A stretch of DNA of 36,420 bases from Fimbriiglobus sp. Lineage in GTDB: Bacteria > Planctomycetota > Planctomycetia > Gemmatales > Gemmataceae. The position numbers were made by a program, and so were the translations under genes. The first letter of the stretch is position 1; each line of letters starts with the position of its first letter. Positions 1 to 19,253 of this stretch are shown piece by piece. A model generated the notes under the pieces. That model was given only the letters and a program-made list of their open reading frames with translations. It was not told the DNA's origin and did not search any database. The DNA lies in NCBI GenBank assembly GCA_025351325.1, contig JANXWE010000232.1:1-36420 (forward strand), written 5' to 3'.

Positions 1-80
1 CGGAATTCGGAATAGAAGAAGCTTCGGTCGTCTCCTTCTCAAACTCCGGACTCCGAACCCCGAATTCCGCACTCCCGACT
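1..80. repeat. Imperfect palindrome with 7-base period, cut by window edge
   Basis: Bases 1-10 (cggaattcgg) are the reverse complement of 59-68 (ccgaattccg), and inner bases (agaag near 16-20, cttct near 35-39) can pair too. The right arm reads as degenerate heptamers: actccgg, actccga, accccga, attccgc, actcccg. The same design with other sequences occurs at 1671-1768, 16293-16406 and 16898-17010. It lies directly before tRNA-Gly and may extend left of the window. Function unknown. Confidence 0.5.
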
Positions 81-152
81 GCGGGAGTAGCTCAACGGTA
101 GAGCACTTGCCTTCCAAGCAAGATGTTGTGGGTTCAAATCCCATCTCCCGCT
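81..152 (+). tRNA. tRNA-Gly (anticodon TCC)
   Basis: A complete 72-base cloverleaf. The acceptor arms are gcgggag (81-87) and ctcccgc (145-151). The D-arm sequence agctcaacggtagagc is present, and the anticodon stem cttgc/gcaag closes the loop cttccaa with anticodon TCC, which reads GGA. The T-arm contains ggttcaaatcc. The terminal CCA is not encoded. It heads the tRNA-tuf block. Confidence 0.96.
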
Positions 153-224
153 CTGGCCATCCGCTCGACTCGGTTGTATCAAGACAGTGGTCTTATGATG
201 GTCGCTAGTGATTCTGACGATTCT

Positions 225-434: not shown

Positions 435-1667
435 ATGGCGAAGGGCGAATTCAAGCGGACTAAACCACACCTGAACGTCGGCACCATTGGTCACATTGAC
501 CACGGCAAGTCGACCCTCACCGCTGCGCTCGTCGCACGCCAAGGGTTCAAGTTCGGCGGCGAAGTCAAAAGCTACTCAGAAATCACCAAAGGCGGAACGG
601 TTCGCGATGCGAACAAGACCGTTACCATCGCCGTGTCGCACGTCGAATATGAAACGAACGCACGCCATTACGCCCACATCGACTGCCCCGGGCACGCCGA
701 CTTCATCAAGAACATGATCACCGGCGCCGCCCAAATGGACGGGGCGATCTTGGTGGTGGCTGCCAACGACGGCCCGATGCCACAAACTCGCGAACACGTG
801 CTCTTGGCTCGCCAAGTGGGCGTACCAAAGGTCGTGGTGTACATGAACAAGTGCGACACCGTCGACGATCCAGAATTGCTCGAACTCGTGGAACTCGAAA
901 TCCGCGAACTGCTCAACAAGTACGACTTTCCCGGCGACGACACGCCAATCATTCGTGGTCAGTCGAAAGACGCGCTCGAAAACCCGAAGACCGATGGCCC
1001 GGGTTCGAAGTCGATCGACGAACTCGTCGACGCCCTCGACAACTACATCCCGATTCCGGAACGGGCCGAAGACAAGCCGTTCTTGATGTCGATCGAAGAC
1101 GTGTTCAGTATCAAAGGTCGGGGTACTGTCGCCACGGGTCGCGTGGAGCGCGGTACGGCCAAAGTCGGTGACGAAGTGGAAATCATCGGTCTCCGCAAGG
1201 ACGTCGTGAAGACGATCCTCACGGGGATCGAAATGTTCCAAAAGACCCTCGACAAAGCCATTGCCGGCGACAACGTCGGAGCACTGCTCCGGGGTATCGA
1301 CCGCGACGGCATCGAACGTGGGCAAGTGCTCGCCAAGCCGGGCAGCATCAAGCCGCGGTCGAAGTTCGAAGCCAACATCTACGTGCTCAGCAAAGACGAA
1401 GGTGGTCGCCACACCCCGTTCTTCAGCGGGTACCAGCCGCAGTTCTACTTCCGCACCACCGACGTGACCGGTAAGATCACGTTGCCAGAAGGCGTGGAAA
1501 TGTGCATGCCTGGCGACAACGTCAAAGTCGTCGTGACCTTGATGGACGGTATGCCCGTCGCGATGGACGAAGGTCTCCGCTTCGCGATCCGCGAAGGCGG
1601 CCGGACGGTCGGCTCGGGCGTGGTGACGAAGATCCTCGAAGACGATCCGGCTCCAGCCAAGAAGTAA
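435..1667 (+). CDS. tuf: Elongation factor Tu
   Basis: Encodes EF-Tu (410 aa), the GTPase that delivers aminoacyl-tRNA to the ribosomal A site. Visible motifs: P-loop GHIDHGKST (residues 19-27), DCPGH (83-87), NKCD (138-141), then beta-barrel domains 2 and 3 ([25 protein letters not shown] near the end). The switch I element that is RGITIN in most bacteria reads KTVTIA (61-66): the threonine that senses the GTP gamma-phosphate is kept, while Arg-Gly is replaced by Lys-Thr. From memory this form is usual in planctomycetes. Start ATG follows ggag at 424-427. It is flanked by tRNA-Thr upstream and tRNA-Trp downstream. Confidence 0.98.
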
Positions 1668-1670
1668 GTT

Positions 1671-1768
1671 CGATTGCGGATTTGGGATTTCGGATTTTAG
1701 GAAATGGCGAGGAATACTGAATTCCCCGTCCCATTTTCTTGTAATTCGAAATCCCAAATCCGCAATCC
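1671..1768. repeat. Long palindrome with 7-base-period arms (tuf / tRNA-Trp)
   Basis: Bases 1672-1692 are a perfect 21-base inverted repeat of 1747-1767. Inside, ggaat (1711-1715) can pair with attcc and aaatgg (1703-1708) with ccattt, so the whole 98 bases can fold into one long imperfect hairpin. The arms read as heptamers: cgattgc, ggatttg, ggatttc, ggatttt on the left and gaaatcc, caaatcc, gcaatcc on the right. No T-run follows, so it is not a normal terminator. It begins 3 bases after the tuf stop codon. Confidence 0.75.
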
Positions 1769-1778
1769 GAAGTTCAAT

Positions 1779-1851
1779 AGGTGCGTAGCTCAACTGGTAG
1801 AGCAGCGGTCTCCAAAACCGCAGGTTTCAGGTTCGATTCCTGACGCACCTG
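1779..1851 (+). tRNA. tRNA-Trp (anticodon CCA)
   Basis: A complete 73-base cloverleaf. The acceptor arms are aggtgcg (1779-1785) and cgcacct (1844-1850), with discriminator G. The anticodon stem gcggt/accgc closes loop ctccaaa with anticodon CCA. The T-arm contains ggttcgattcc. CCA is not encoded. tRNA-Trp just before secE is a widespread bacterial arrangement, although the usual rpmG between tuf and this tRNA is missing here. Confidence 0.97.
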
Positions 1852-1922
1852 CTCGATCTTGGTACTTAACTTTTCGTCGTTTGGATGCGTCCCGCATTCG
1901 TGCGGGTCCGAAAGGGCCGGGT

Positions 1923-15913: not shown

Positions 15914-16288
15914 ATGCCGACGATCAATCAGTTGGTGAAGAAGCCCCGGACGCCTCAGCGCTCGAAGCCGAAGCACCCCGCCATGGAAGGTTGCCCGCAG
16001 AAGCGCGGCGTCTGCACCGTGGTTAAGACAATGACCCCGAAAAAGCCGAACTCGGCGTTGCGGAAGGTCGCCCGGGTTCGCTTGTCGAGCGGCATCGAAG
16101 TCACGGCGTACATCGGCGGCGAAGGGCACAACTTGCAAGAACACTCGATCGTGTTGGTGCGTGGCGGCAAAGTGCGTGACTTGCCCGGCGTGCGGTACCA
16201 CATCGTCCGCGGTGTGCTCGACTGCCAAGCGGTGACGGATCGCAAACAGGCCCGCTCGAAGTACGGTGCCAAGTCCGACGGCAAATAG
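15914..16288 (+). CDS. rpsL: 30S ribosomal protein S12
   Basis: S12 (124 aa) lies at the decoding centre and affects fidelity and streptomycin response. The whole sequence matches the family: [32 protein letters not shown] (with Lys43 equivalent in PKKPNS), [31 protein letters not shown]. The PKKPNS lysine and the GVRYHIVRG loop are of the normal, streptomycin-sensitive type. Start ATG 15914 follows agagg (15903-15907). A longer in-frame reading from 15827 is not supported because family members begin at MPTINQL. Confidence 0.98.
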
Positions 16289-16292
16289 GAAT

Positions 16293-16406
16293 AGTTCCAG
16301 GTTCCATGTTCCAAGTTCCATGTTGTCGAACGCCCGAGTTCGATTGGAATTTGTGAGTATGGTGCTTGGGATCGAACATGAACTTGGAACTTGGAACTTG
16401 GAACTT
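16293..16406. repeat. Long palindrome with 7-base-period arms (rpsL / rpsG)
   Basis: The left arm (16293-16325) reads agttcca, ggttcca, tgttcca, agttcca; the right arm (16373-16406) reads gaacatg, aacttgg, aacttgg, aacttgg, aac. They pair over about 30 bases with a few mismatches. An inner hairpin is tcgaac (16326-16331) with gttcga (16338-16343). It fills the whole rpsL-rpsG spacer and ends about 6 bases before the rpsG start, where no clear ribosome binding site is seen apart from the repeat itself. Confidence 0.75.
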
Positions 16407-16412
16407 TAATTT

Positions 16413-16889
16413 ATGGGTACGAAGTCTCGCACGGCCAGCTACGACAAGATGGTTCCGGACGTCCGGTTCAATTCGTTGCTCGTGTCCAAATTCATCAACT
16501 GCTTGATGCACGATGGCAAAAAAGCCACCGCGACTCGGATCTTCTACGACGCCATGGAACTGATCCAAAAGCGGATCCCGGACGTCGATCCGGTCGAAGT
16601 CTTCAAAGCGGCCATCGACAACGTCAAGCCGGCACTCGAAGTGCGCTCCCGCCGGGTCGGCGGTGCCAACTACCAAGTGCCAATGCAAGTGAAGCCCCAG
16701 CGTCAGCAATCGCTGTCGATCCGCTGGCTCATCATCGCCATCCGCAGCAAGGCGGGTCGCCCGACCTTCCAGCGGCTCGCGGACGAACTGATCGCCGCAT
16801 CTCGCCGCGAAGGCGAAGCAATGTCGAAACGCGAACAAACCGTGAAGATGGCCGAAGCCAACAAGGCATTCAGCCACTTCGCTTGGTGA
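16413..16889 (+). CDS. rpsG: 30S ribosomal protein S7
   Basis: S7 (158 aa) nucleates assembly of the 30S head and contacts the E-site tRNA. Family features: VPDVRFNSLLVSKFINCLMHDGKKATATRIFYDAMELI, VEVRSRRVGGANYQVPMQV (as LEVRSRRVGGANYQVPM), QQSLSIRWLIIAIRSK, and the C-terminal MSKREQTVKMAEANKAFSHFAW. Length matches the family (about 156 aa). Start ATG 16413 lies directly after the right arm of the upstream palindrome. Downstream comes fusA, giving the usual rpsL-rpsG-fusA order. Confidence 0.98.
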   Translation: MGTKSRTASYDKMVPDVRFNSLLVSKFINCLMHDGKKATATRIFYDAMELIQKRIPDVDPVEVFKAAIDNVKPALEVRSRRVGGANYQVPMQVKPQRQQSLSIRWLIIAIRSKAGRPTFQRLADELIAASRREGEAMSKREQTVKMAEANKAFSHFAW

Positions 16890-16897
16890 TGTGTCGT

Positions 16898-17010
16898 AGT
16901 CGGTGAACAGTGGTCAGTGGTCGGTGCCTTCGGGCACAGGCCTCTGACCATTTTGCATTTGAACCCTCGCGAGTTTTTCTAAACTGACCATCGACCGCTG
17001 ACCACCGACT
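16898..17010. repeat. Long palindrome with 7-base-period arms (rpsG / fusA)
   Basis: The left arm 16898-16925 matches the reverse complement of 16983-17010 at 22 of 28 positions. The right arm reads ctgacca, tcgaccg, ctgacca, ccgactc; the left carries gtggtca, gtggtcg. A nested strong hairpin is listed separately at 16912-16949. It fills the spacer between rpsG and fusA. Same design as the elements after tuf and rpsL but with different sequence. Confidence 0.65.
16912..16955 (+). terminator. UUCG-capped hairpin after rpsG
   Basis: ggtcag (16912-16917) pairs with ctgacc (16944-16949), more pairs follow inward, and gtgcc (16924-16928) pairs with ggcac (16933-16937) around the extra-stable loop ttcg. 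attttgc follows. It resembles an intrinsic terminator or an mRNA-end stabiliser inside the larger palindrome. Confidence 0.5.
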
Positions 17011-17021
17011 CCTGGTTTCCA

Positions 17022-19139
17022 ATGGCCAAATCCTCTTCCGCGACCGACGAACTCGCCAAGATTCGCAATCTCGGGGTCATCGCGCACATCGACGCTGGCA
17101 AGACGACCACCACCGAACATCTTCTCTTTTATGCCGGGGCCAAGCACAAGCTCGGCGGGGTCGATCAAGGCACCACCCAGACCGATTACGACCCCGAAGA
17201 ACAAGAGCGTGGCATCACGATCTACTCGGCGTGCATCCCCTTCCAGTGGGCCGGGTTCACCATCAATCTGATCGACACCCCGGGCCACGTCGATTTCACC
17301 GCCGAGGTCGAGCGGAGCCTGCGCGTGCTCGATGGGGCCGTCTGCGTGTTCGATGCGCAGAAGGGGGTCGAGGCCCAATCGGAAACCGTTTGGAAGCAGG
17401 CGAACAAGTACTCGGTGCCCCGGTTGATTTTCGTCAACAAAATGGACGTCGTCGGGGCCAGTTTCGCCAAGGCGCTGGTGTCGATCCACGACCGCCTCAC
17501 ACCCGACTTCGCCGCCAATGGCCGGCCGGTGCCAATTCAAATTCCCATCGGATCCGGCAGCGAAAAGGACAGCCCCAAACCGTTTCGGGGCGTCATCGAC
17601 ATCCTCGAACAGCAGGCGATTTACTTCGACCCGGCCGACGGCGGCAAGACGATCACCCGCGAATCGATCCCGGACGAGGAACTCGACACGGTGAAGAAGT
17701 ACCGCGAGCAACTCTTCGACGCGCTCACGCAACACGACGAACAAGATCTGATCACTTCGGCAGTGCTCGAAGGGTTGGAGCCGGACCTGACCAAAGTCCG
17801 CAAGTTGATCCGCGAGCAGACGCTGTCACGGAAGATTTACCCCGTGCTGTGTGGCTCGGGACGCGAGCATATCGGCATCCAGCCGATGCTCGACGCCGTG
17901 ACACTCTACCTGCCCAGCCCGCTCGATCGACCACCAGTGGTCGGCACCAACCCGAAGAACGGCAAAGAAGAGATTCGCAAACCGGATCCGAAGGAACCAT
18001 TCTGCGGGTTGGTCTTTAAAGCGGCGTGGCACCCGAGTGGGCACCGATTCTTCATCCGCGTCTACTCCGGCACGTTGCGGCCGAACGCGCGGGCGTTCAA
18101 CACCGGCCGGGACGTGAAAGAGAACATCGCCAAACTGTTCCACGTGCACGCCGACCCGAACCGTGGGTTGGAAGAAGTCGAAACGGCCCCGACTGGCGAT
18201 ATCGTCGCGGTCGTCGGCTTGAAAGAATCGAAGACGGGGGACACTCTGTGCGACACCCAGCACCCGATTCTGCTAGAGCCGATCAGCTTCGCGGAGGCGG
18301 TGGTCAGCCAGTCGATCGAACCGGAAAGCGGCAAAGACAAGGACAAGCTAGCGAACGCCTTGGAGATGCTCCAGCTCGAAGATCCGACATTCAAAGTGCA
18401 AGATAGCAAAGACACGGGCCAAGTGCTGATGAGCGGCATGGGCACGCTCCACCTCGAAGTGAAAGTGCACCGGCTCGAGCGCGACTTCAAGTTGGAAGTG
18501 CGTGTCGGCAAACCACGGGTGAGCTTCCGCGAGATGCTGCGGGCCGGAAAGACGGTCGAAATCACCGTGGACAAACTCGGCGACAAACCGAGTTTCGCGT
18601 TCCTGCGGGTGTCGTTCACCACGTTCAAAACCGAGAAGCCCGTCACGGTGCGGAACAGCGTTGGCAGCGAGGCGCTCCCGCCGTTATTCGCGGCCGCCGC
18701 CGAGCGCGGGTTGATCGACGCTTGTCAAACGGGGGAACTCGGCTACCCGATGATGAACCTGCAAGCGACGATCACCGACGCCCGCTTCGACCCGCAGCTC
18801 AGCAGCGAAGACGCCTTCGTCGTCGCGGCGAACAAGGCCTACCGCCAAGCGTGCGATGACAACATCGACCTGCTCCAGCCGATCATGAAAGTGACCGTCA
18901 GCACGCCGTCGGACTTCCTCGGCAACATCACGGGCGACCTCGCCAAACGGGGCGGGGAAGTGAAGGAGATCACCGGCGACAGCACGGCCGAGGTGGTCGC
19001 CTACGTCCCGCTCGAGAAGTTATTCACCTACGCCAACGAGGTCCGCAGCCTGAGCCAAGGCCGGGCGAATGCGTCGATGGAACCCGATTCGTACCAAGTC
19101 GCTCCGCAGGAAGTGGTCCGCCGCATTCGGGGTGGGTGA
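17022..19139 (+). CDS. fusA: Elongation factor G
   Basis: EF-G (705 aa) is the GTPase that drives ribosomal translocation and, with RRF, recycling. Motifs: G1 AHIDAGKT (21-28), switch I EEQERGITI (59-67), DTPGHVD (85-91), NKMD (139-142), then domain II, III and the domain IV/V region (LQATITDARFDPQLSSEDAF; GDLAKRGGEVKEITGDSTAEVVAYVPLEKLF). The stretch around switch I reads TDYDPEEQERGITIYSA rather than the commoner MDWMEQEQERGITITSA. Planctomycetes and spirochaetes are known to have divergent EF-G paralogues (spdEFG1/2), so this may be one of them. Position after rpsL-rpsG is canonical. A REP hairpin with T-run ends the gene. Confidence 0.95.
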   Translation: MAKSSSATDELAKIRNLGVIAHIDAGKTTTTEHLLFYAGAKHKLGGVDQGTTQTDYDPEEQERGITIYSACIPFQWAGFTINLIDTPGHVDFTAEVERSLRVLDGAVCVFDAQKGVEAQSETVWKQANKYSVPRLIFVNKMDVVGASFAKALVSIHDRLTPDFAANGRPVPIQIPIGSGSEKDSPKPFRGVIDILEQQAIYFDPADGGKTITRESIPDEELDTVKKYREQLFDALTQHDEQDLITSAVLEGLEPDLTKVRKLIREQTLSRKIYPVLCGSGREHIGIQPMLDAVTLYLPSPLDRPPVVGTNPKNGKEEIRKPDPKEPFCGLVFKAAWHPSGHRFFIRVYSGTLRPNARAFNTGRDVKENIAKLFHVHADPNRGLEEVETAPTGDIVAVVGLKESKTGDTLCDTQHPILLEPISFAEAVVSQSIEPESGKDKDKLANALEMLQLEDPTFKVQDSKDTGQVLMSGMGTLHLEVKVHRLERDFKLEVRVGKPRVSFREMLRAGKTVEITVDKLGDKPSFAFLRVSFTTFKTEKPVTVRNSVGSEALPPLFAAAAERGLIDACQTGELGYPMMNLQATITDARFDPQLSSEDAFVVAANKAYRQACDDNIDLLQPIMKVTVSTPSDFLGNITGDLAKRGGEVKEITGDSTAEVVAYVPLEKLFTYANEVRSLSQGRANASMEPDSYQVAPQEVVRRIRGG

Positions 19140-19173: not shown

Positions 19174-19253
19174 ATGGCGAGCCGGTCAGCGTCAGCTGCC
19201 GGGTTTTTTTGAGCAGTAAAGAATCCGGCAGCTGAAGCTGACCGGCTCGCCAT
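19174..19253. repeat. Inverted pair of REP-like elements; also terminates fusA
   Basis: Unit 1 (19174-19202) and unit 2 (19225-19253, reversed) match in 28 of 29 bases. Each unit folds by itself: ccgg-t-cagc, a four-base loop, gctg-ccgg. The loop is gtca in unit 1 and ttca in unit 2. Unit 1 is followed by ttttttt (19204-19210), making an intrinsic terminator for fusA. A third unit with loop gtga is at 21489-21516. The pair lies between converging genes, as REP/BIME elements often do. Confidence 0.85.

Follow-up and report, generated by a model that had tools for sequence, protein, structure and literature searches.

In this study, we found that the heptamer-armed foldbacks of a Fimbriiglobus sp. 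genome stretch of 36,420 nucleotides (the window, always meant at its full length) have counterparts elsewhere in the same genome and in other phyla. The reading we favour, with about even confidence, is that they represent a class of short (~80-150 bp) non-coding foldbacks in which degenerate tandem copies of a 7-nt word, in some cases one of 8 or 9 nt, form the stem around an unconserved loop, and which spread as units and are kept up by slippage and template switching. Several word families occur in one genome, one word occurs across phyla, and the polarity of each word tested is fixed. Copies are found in tight intergenic spacers and, in frame, in variable protein loops, and the same site in congeners carries another word or is empty.

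Table 1. Foldbacks of the window and the genes beside them
Feature	Position	Strand	Remarks
Foldback, word ACTCCGC/ACTCCGG	1-80		truncated at contig start; 3' arm ~42-80 adjoins tRNA-Gly
tRNA-Gly(TCC)	81-153	+	
tuf (EF-Tu)	435-1667	+	ORF, which we take to be tuf from its translation; stop codon 4 nt upstream of foldback
Foldback, word GGATTTC/GGATTTG	1672-1767		5' arm 1672-1696, 3' arm 1743-1767; occupies whole tuf/tRNA-Trp spacer
tRNA-Trp(CCA)	1779-1852	+	11 nt 3' of tuf/tRNA-Trp foldback
Foldback, word GGAACTT / AGTTCCA	16293-16405		arms 16293-16318 and 16380-16405; occupies rpsL/rpsG spacer
rpsG (S7)	16413-16889	+	ORF; foldback on either side; rpsL-rpsG-fusA order conserved in relatives
Foldback, word AGTGGTC	16898-17010		arms 16898-16922 and 16986-17010; occupies rpsG/fusA spacer
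fusA (EF-G)	17022-19139	+	ORF; gene order conserved in relatives

As the earlier note had described for 1671-1768, the tuf/tRNA-Trp spacer carries a heptamer-armed foldback with a perfect 21-base inverted repeat: its arms pair at 24 of 25 positions, 21 of them perfectly (GATTGCGGATTTGGGATTTCG), and lag-7 identity is 0.81. The same plan was indeed present elsewhere in the window, with complete foldbacks in the rpsL/rpsG spacer (24/26 paired, lag-7 identity 0.92) and the rpsG/fusA spacer (20/25 paired, 0.67), and a fourth at the contig start with clear period-7 in the 3' arm only (0.70). This last one lacks most of its 5' arm because contig C262 begins at base 1. Contigs C160 (L019 1-60) and C215 (L111 1-50) likewise begin inside an ACTCCGC foldback, apparently within a carB-like gene, and share the loop of the truncated element. 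Thus, with three contig starts in ACTCCGC foldbacks, the assembly seems to break at such hairpins. The window foldbacks start 4-8 nt past a stop codon and stop 7-11 nt short of the next gene.

An excess of period-7 foldbacks over chance, on which the earlier note had staked its reading, was observed. The window contains six strong runs at lag 7, none at lags 4-6, 8, 10, 11 or 13, and almost none over lags 4-13 other than 7, and first-order Markov shuffles of 423 kb of the Fimbriiglobus genome yielded 4-6 foldbacks in total, none with period 7. Two known identities were rejected for these elements. Intrinsic terminators (GC stem, short loop, then T-run) were not detected at 1600-1900 or 16250-17060, and the only Rfam 15 matches over gathering score in the window were three tRNAs, with no known RNA family for the foldbacks.

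The words of the window are recurrent families and are not independent of one another. The earlier note had called the heptamers unrelated; the spacers of the window do hold different words, but all four words recur elsewhere in the genome as families. By pattern search, GGATTTC arrays occur at ~13 loci and GGAACTT arrays at four, one in the window and three elsewhere, and the reversed control pattern for either word had no match in this genome. AGTGGTC is found at many loci, with 55 matches at up to 3 mismatches versus 3 for the control, and ACTCCGC at no fewer than four loci. In contig C143, two spacers between tRNA genes are occupied by ACTCCGC foldbacks. The GGAACTT copies at rpsN/rpsH, atpD/atpC and rpsL/rpsG and in leuS have common termini (AGTTCCAGGTTCCA...TGGAAC(C/T)TGGAACT) and unrelated loops. 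Nearby pairs were convergent in 5/5 cases for GGATTTC, 4/4 for GGAACTT and 8/8 for AGTGGTC. These genome-wide counts rest on pattern searches together with an unselected 423-kb sample, which contained one clear strict period-7 foldback, at atpD/atpC.

Other hairpins were also seen. A second dispersed hairpin family with the ends GGCGAGCCG...CGGCTCGCC and a variable GC-rich core lies at 19174-19253 of the window, with further copies at L008 12099-12203, L018 210-315 and L027 1914-1991. A foldback family GACCTCACCCCCC...CCCCCTCTC occurs at L106 8597-8653, at L178 1298-1460 and in the tRNA-Leu/tRNA-Ser spacer of L396 (~700-810); its sites include an inter-tRNA spacer of the Fimbriiglobus genome. 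The hairpin GTTAACCCGATGCGCAAGCATCGG was found at two loci of the latter, L013 6377-6482 and L020 2076-2156.

A search with a pattern demanding the foldback found GGATTTC foldbacks in 116 contig stretches or more, in named genomes of at least eight phyla. Among the matches listed, the hosts belong to Bacteroidota, Acidobacteriota, Planctomycetota, Pseudomonadota, desulfobacterial lineages, Chloroflexota, Nitrospinota, Verrucomicrobiota and Cyanobacteria (Tychonema); the isolates Fibrella forsythiae and F. rubiginis, Mucilaginibacter sp. OK283 and Tychonema sp. BBK16 are hosts other than metagenome-assembled genomes (MAGs). Loops were unrelated among these matches and stems reached 39/39 pairs. 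Arrays of at least 20 bp formed 132 convergent pairs, no divergent pair and 43 single arrays among the matches listed, where the 116 stretches had been chosen for the convergent form and ~16 of the pairs are independent. In foldbacks with other words, period 7 dominated over 6, 8, 9, 10 and 11 at the loci read. The distribution is patchy: within the phylum of the window the exact GGATTTC foldback was found in 3 of 294 genomes, and no period-7 foldback was found in 200 kb each of the related genera G004 and G011. A divergent-orientation control gave no match in the same 294 genomes, which is weak evidence alone, given that the convergent form itself occurs in only 3. Of 40 word groups, 24 were G/T-rich and 15 A/C-rich (p = 0.2), and a telomerase-like process with a G/T-rich 5' arm was rejected for want of a general strand bias. 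As separate observations, L222 (~440-560) appears to be nested, with a GGAAGCC-like word in the outer arms, which enclose a GGATTTC array, and in L199, L202, L206, L213 and L215, from betaproteobacterial and other Pseudomonadota MAGs, the GGATTTC loop holds a common GCGCGGC...GCCGCGC hairpin.

Slippage does not account for exactly the same words in different phyla, and no horizontally transferred copy was traced. A broader reading would define a pan-bacterial class by its architecture (7-nt-periodic stem, fixed polarity, free loop), with words that cross phyla and replace each other at the same sites, driven by a novel enzyme or templating process by which heptamer arrays and the complementary arrays are written. 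We regard this as possible yet doubtful.

The earlier note placed all four window elements next to tRNA or translation genes. The excess at such genes is real but not exclusive, and the neighbourhood seen in the window partly reflects its rif-str block. Thirteen elements of the cross-phylum set lie within 1 kb of a tRNA gene, and among the matches listed all 13 are 1-7 nt away from it; ~3 would be expected within 200 nt under random placement, and the 13 copies amount to five independent loci. A tRNA array of an Acidobacteria MAG (L196 5891-7863) carries a GGATTTC foldback in 6 of its 8 inter-tRNA spacers. Ribosomal-protein spacers are occupied at rplR/rpsE in a Chloroflexi genome and at rpsQ/rplN, rpsS/rplV and rplB/rplW in a Pyrinomonadaceae genome, the names being given by homology to the S10/spc block of the Fimbriiglobus genome. 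In that genome, copies lie at rplO/secY, rplB/rpsS, rpsN/rpsH, rpsM/rpsK, groES/groEL and atpD/atpC, in the tRNA cluster of C143, within leuS and where selB begins, but they are also found at rmlA/rmlB, an ABC transporter, moxR and others; the names of these flanking genes are our assignments from reading the translations. The foldback loci looked at in the distant genome G013 were at non-translation genes. Because the C5 block was picked for its matches, any fold-enrichment derived from it would be biased, and we claim none. Two assignments were rejected: the rpsG/fusA spacer as the site of the L190 element, where no fusA match was found, and the tRNA-Ile/tRNA-Ala spacer of L219 as an rRNA spacer, with no rRNA beside it.

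The leuS and uvrA genes also carry in-frame heptamer insertions, situated in variable loops. At G000:C124 (~11.9-19 kb), a fused double uvrA (ORF of 2478 aa in the Fimbriiglobus genome, G000; ~2300-2460 aa in relatives) contains three heptamer insertions.

The close fit of foldbacks to tRNA genes, along with the occupation of six of eight spacers in the Acidobacteria array, would be expected if the long stems between co-transcribed tRNA and ribosomal genes were a selected RNA structure, either processing hairpins (e.g. for RNase III) or translation-decoupling hairpins, in which any pairing word would serve and the words turn over while the hairpin stays. Furthermore, the tuf/tRNA-Trp, rpsL/rpsG and rpsG/fusA spacers are hairpinned in most genus members, and in some relatives the hairpin of the same spacer is non-periodic. 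However, the rpsL/rpsG hairpin is absent from many relatives, and copies also lie inside the leuS and uvrA coding sequences and in spacers of unrelated operons. The lack of a terminator signal or an Rfam family also speaks against selected RNA, which in addition leaves the words and polarity shared across phyla unexplained, and we consider it fairly unlikely as the main explanation. Under the favoured reading of dispersed foldbacks reshaped in place, an RNA role, for example as a processing hairpin between co-transcribed genes, would be secondary or locus-specific.

When the same spacers were compared in relatives, different words were found at the same site. Within the genus, the tuf/tRNA-Trp spacer holds GGATTTC (G000), GGTCAGC (G003) or GTGGGCT (G001), and in another genus AGATTGC. 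The rpsL/rpsG spacer holds GGAACTT, GTTTCAA, GGAACCC or the 8-nt CAAGTCGT across relatives, and the rpsG/fusA spacer AGTGGTC, GATCAGC or the 9-nt GGCACAGAG, with CACAGAG in another genus and GTCCTTT in another family. At L143 and L144, the rpsG/fusA spacers of two genera carry CACAGAG foldbacks with a period of ~9 and very long stems. In leuS, the loop that holds GGAACTT in G000 has an AATTGCA array in G024. The words in two uvrA loops differ between G000, G002, G003 and G006, and some of the words in the leuS and uvrA loops were read from the encoded peptide only. One Fibrella spacer has GGATTTG in F. forsythiae and a purine-rich foldback in F. rubiginis, and the site of another F. forsythiae element is empty in F. 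rubiginis.

The earlier note had proposed such a comparison of spacers in close relatives, and at most loci an arm agrees better with its own partner than with the orthologous arm. The own-partner score exceeded the same-arm score between genomes in all genomes at rpsL/rpsG and rpsG/fusA and in 3/5 at tuf/tRNA-Trp, where G001 and G013 have a related word in common. Identity from arm to arm was 0.94 versus 0.83 from unit to unit, the former being inflated by the pairing of at least 80% demanded at detection.

Different words at the same sites of congeners, the agreement of the two arms of an element, unrelated loops and a 7-nt periodicity with degenerate units would all fit a local origin only, in which a chance short palindrome in each spacer grew by 7-nt slippage and was perfected by template switching, with words independent of one another. 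Against this, a few words repeat at many loci and in many phyla, polarity and the GGAACTT termini are fixed, and copies are either present or missing as whole units, both in spacers and within genes. We judge a local origin unlikely, and purely local slippage was rejected as the whole story because the words are common to many loci. Thus, of the slippage and foldback templating proposed in the earlier note, the part that stands is that both arms carry the word of their element while orthologues differ: the process accounts for upkeep, not for dispersal.

Mobilisation by a transposase, as a MITE or as a REP-like hairpin moved as ssDNA by an enzyme of the IS200/IS605 or RAYT type that recognises the heptamer stem as the end, agrees with the dispersed copies, their presence or absence in congeners, the in-gene insertions and the consistent termini and polarity, but seems quite improbable, since the loci read showed no conserved flanking tetranucleotide, no common core and no evident autonomous copy, several words in one genome would each require recognition, the two window elements searched had no plasmid or phage match, and only five viral contigs in all carry the element. 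A plasmid or phage origin was rejected on the same matches. For mobilisation of the IS200/REP type, target duplication is not expected.

According to the favoured reading, a foldback would arrive or spread as a unit, either carried by a mover or templated ectopically on another copy, and would then be spared by purifying selection solely in spacers and tolerant loops. Once settled, its arms may lengthen or shorten by 7-nt slippage steps, and arm complementarity may be upheld by intrastrand template switching (quasipalindrome correction). Spread as units is suggested because words, polarity and termini are shared, and reshaping in place because loops are unrelated, units are degenerate and arms agree with each other. 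That loops differ between most loci counts against dispersal as a copied element, and a mover, an autonomous partner and a target-site duplication were not found at the loci read. The 3 of 294 genomes of the phylum and the lack of period-7 foldbacks in the sampled parts of G004 and G011 also weigh against this reading. In yeast, template switching perfects quasipalindrome arms, a process associated with strong transcription and with RNA:DNA hybrids (PMC3820800). The same upkeep may operate in these bacteria, and if transcription promotes template switching in them as in yeast, the excess seen at operons of tRNA and ribosomal-protein genes would be in keeping with it.

If this is true, one structural repeat class, known up to now from heptamer repeats scattered over a few genomes, is widespread and turning over at essential operons. 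Slippage and template-switch mutagenesis could then be studied in a natural setting, in bacterial DNA under transcription. It would also account for recurring low-complexity peptides in protein loops, such as FQVPSSKFQ, NPKSEIRNPKS and GTWNLELGTWNLEL, warn that draft assemblies may break at these hairpins, and raise the question of what carries words between phyla.

Heptamer word strings used as a literature query returned nothing relevant in open-access papers, and in the open-access papers searched we found no description of such breadth, of copies inside genes or of one word replacing another at a site. Several known systems nevertheless share features with these foldbacks, the Xanthomonas GGGAATC repeats and the Nostoc trnL P6b stem coming closest. 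Rickettsia palindromic elements (RPE) are short palindromes in spacers and in frame in genes, and form sequence families with conserved cores. The in-frame palindromic insertions in leuS and uvrA resemble them, whereas RPE are not known to show heptamer periodicity. MITE-like features of the present foldbacks are terminal inverted repeats, dispersed copies and presence or absence at orthologous sites; a target-site duplication was not seen by eye in a small sample, the four GGAACTT and the listed GGATTTC copies, and no autonomous partner (the same ends around a transposase) was apparent in an array scan of the 116 contig stretches. REP/BIME and GTAG-type palindromes (PMC3733652), and MITEs, are likewise dispersed intergenic hairpins, but they have conserved sequence and terminal tags and are not known to have a 7-nt-periodic stem or same-site word replacement. 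In place of the tetranucleotide tag and conserved hairpin of REP/BIME, flanks and loops vary between copies here.

Heptamer arrays with one consensus each and many copies are known as the heptanucleotide elements of Geobacter metallireducens (PMC2700814), and TAACTGA repeats of Beggiatoaceae form many-copy arrays that occur also in distant phyla, although these are direct repeats upstream of start codons with one inverted set only (PMC4679880). The Xanthomonas GGGAATC repeats and their Nostoc counterpart GGGGA(C/T)T share with the present foldbacks the degenerate, dispersed tandem 7-nt units; those of Xanthomonas have mostly four units, with 70 and 75 convergent inverted pairs in two genomes, as reported in the accessible portion of that account (PMC4692102). 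Convergent pairs are thus a part of that type and the rule here. In the same portion, the repeats are studied for their G-quadruplexes, each species has a single word, and the foldback is a side note (PMC4692102), whereas GGATTTC, GGAACTT, AGTGGTC and ACTCCGC units are without a run of 3-4 G. In-gene turnover, same-site word replacement and cross-phylum spread are features of the present foldbacks and not, as far as that portion goes, of the Xanthomonas account (PMC4692102). In the P6b stem of the Nostoc trnL (tRNA-Leu) intron, two alternative heptanucleotide classes form the same structure, with 7-nt indels on both arms (PMC4476775). That stem, albeit a single locus in a group I intron and not dispersed, has in common with the present foldbacks the interchangeable heptamer words in one stem.
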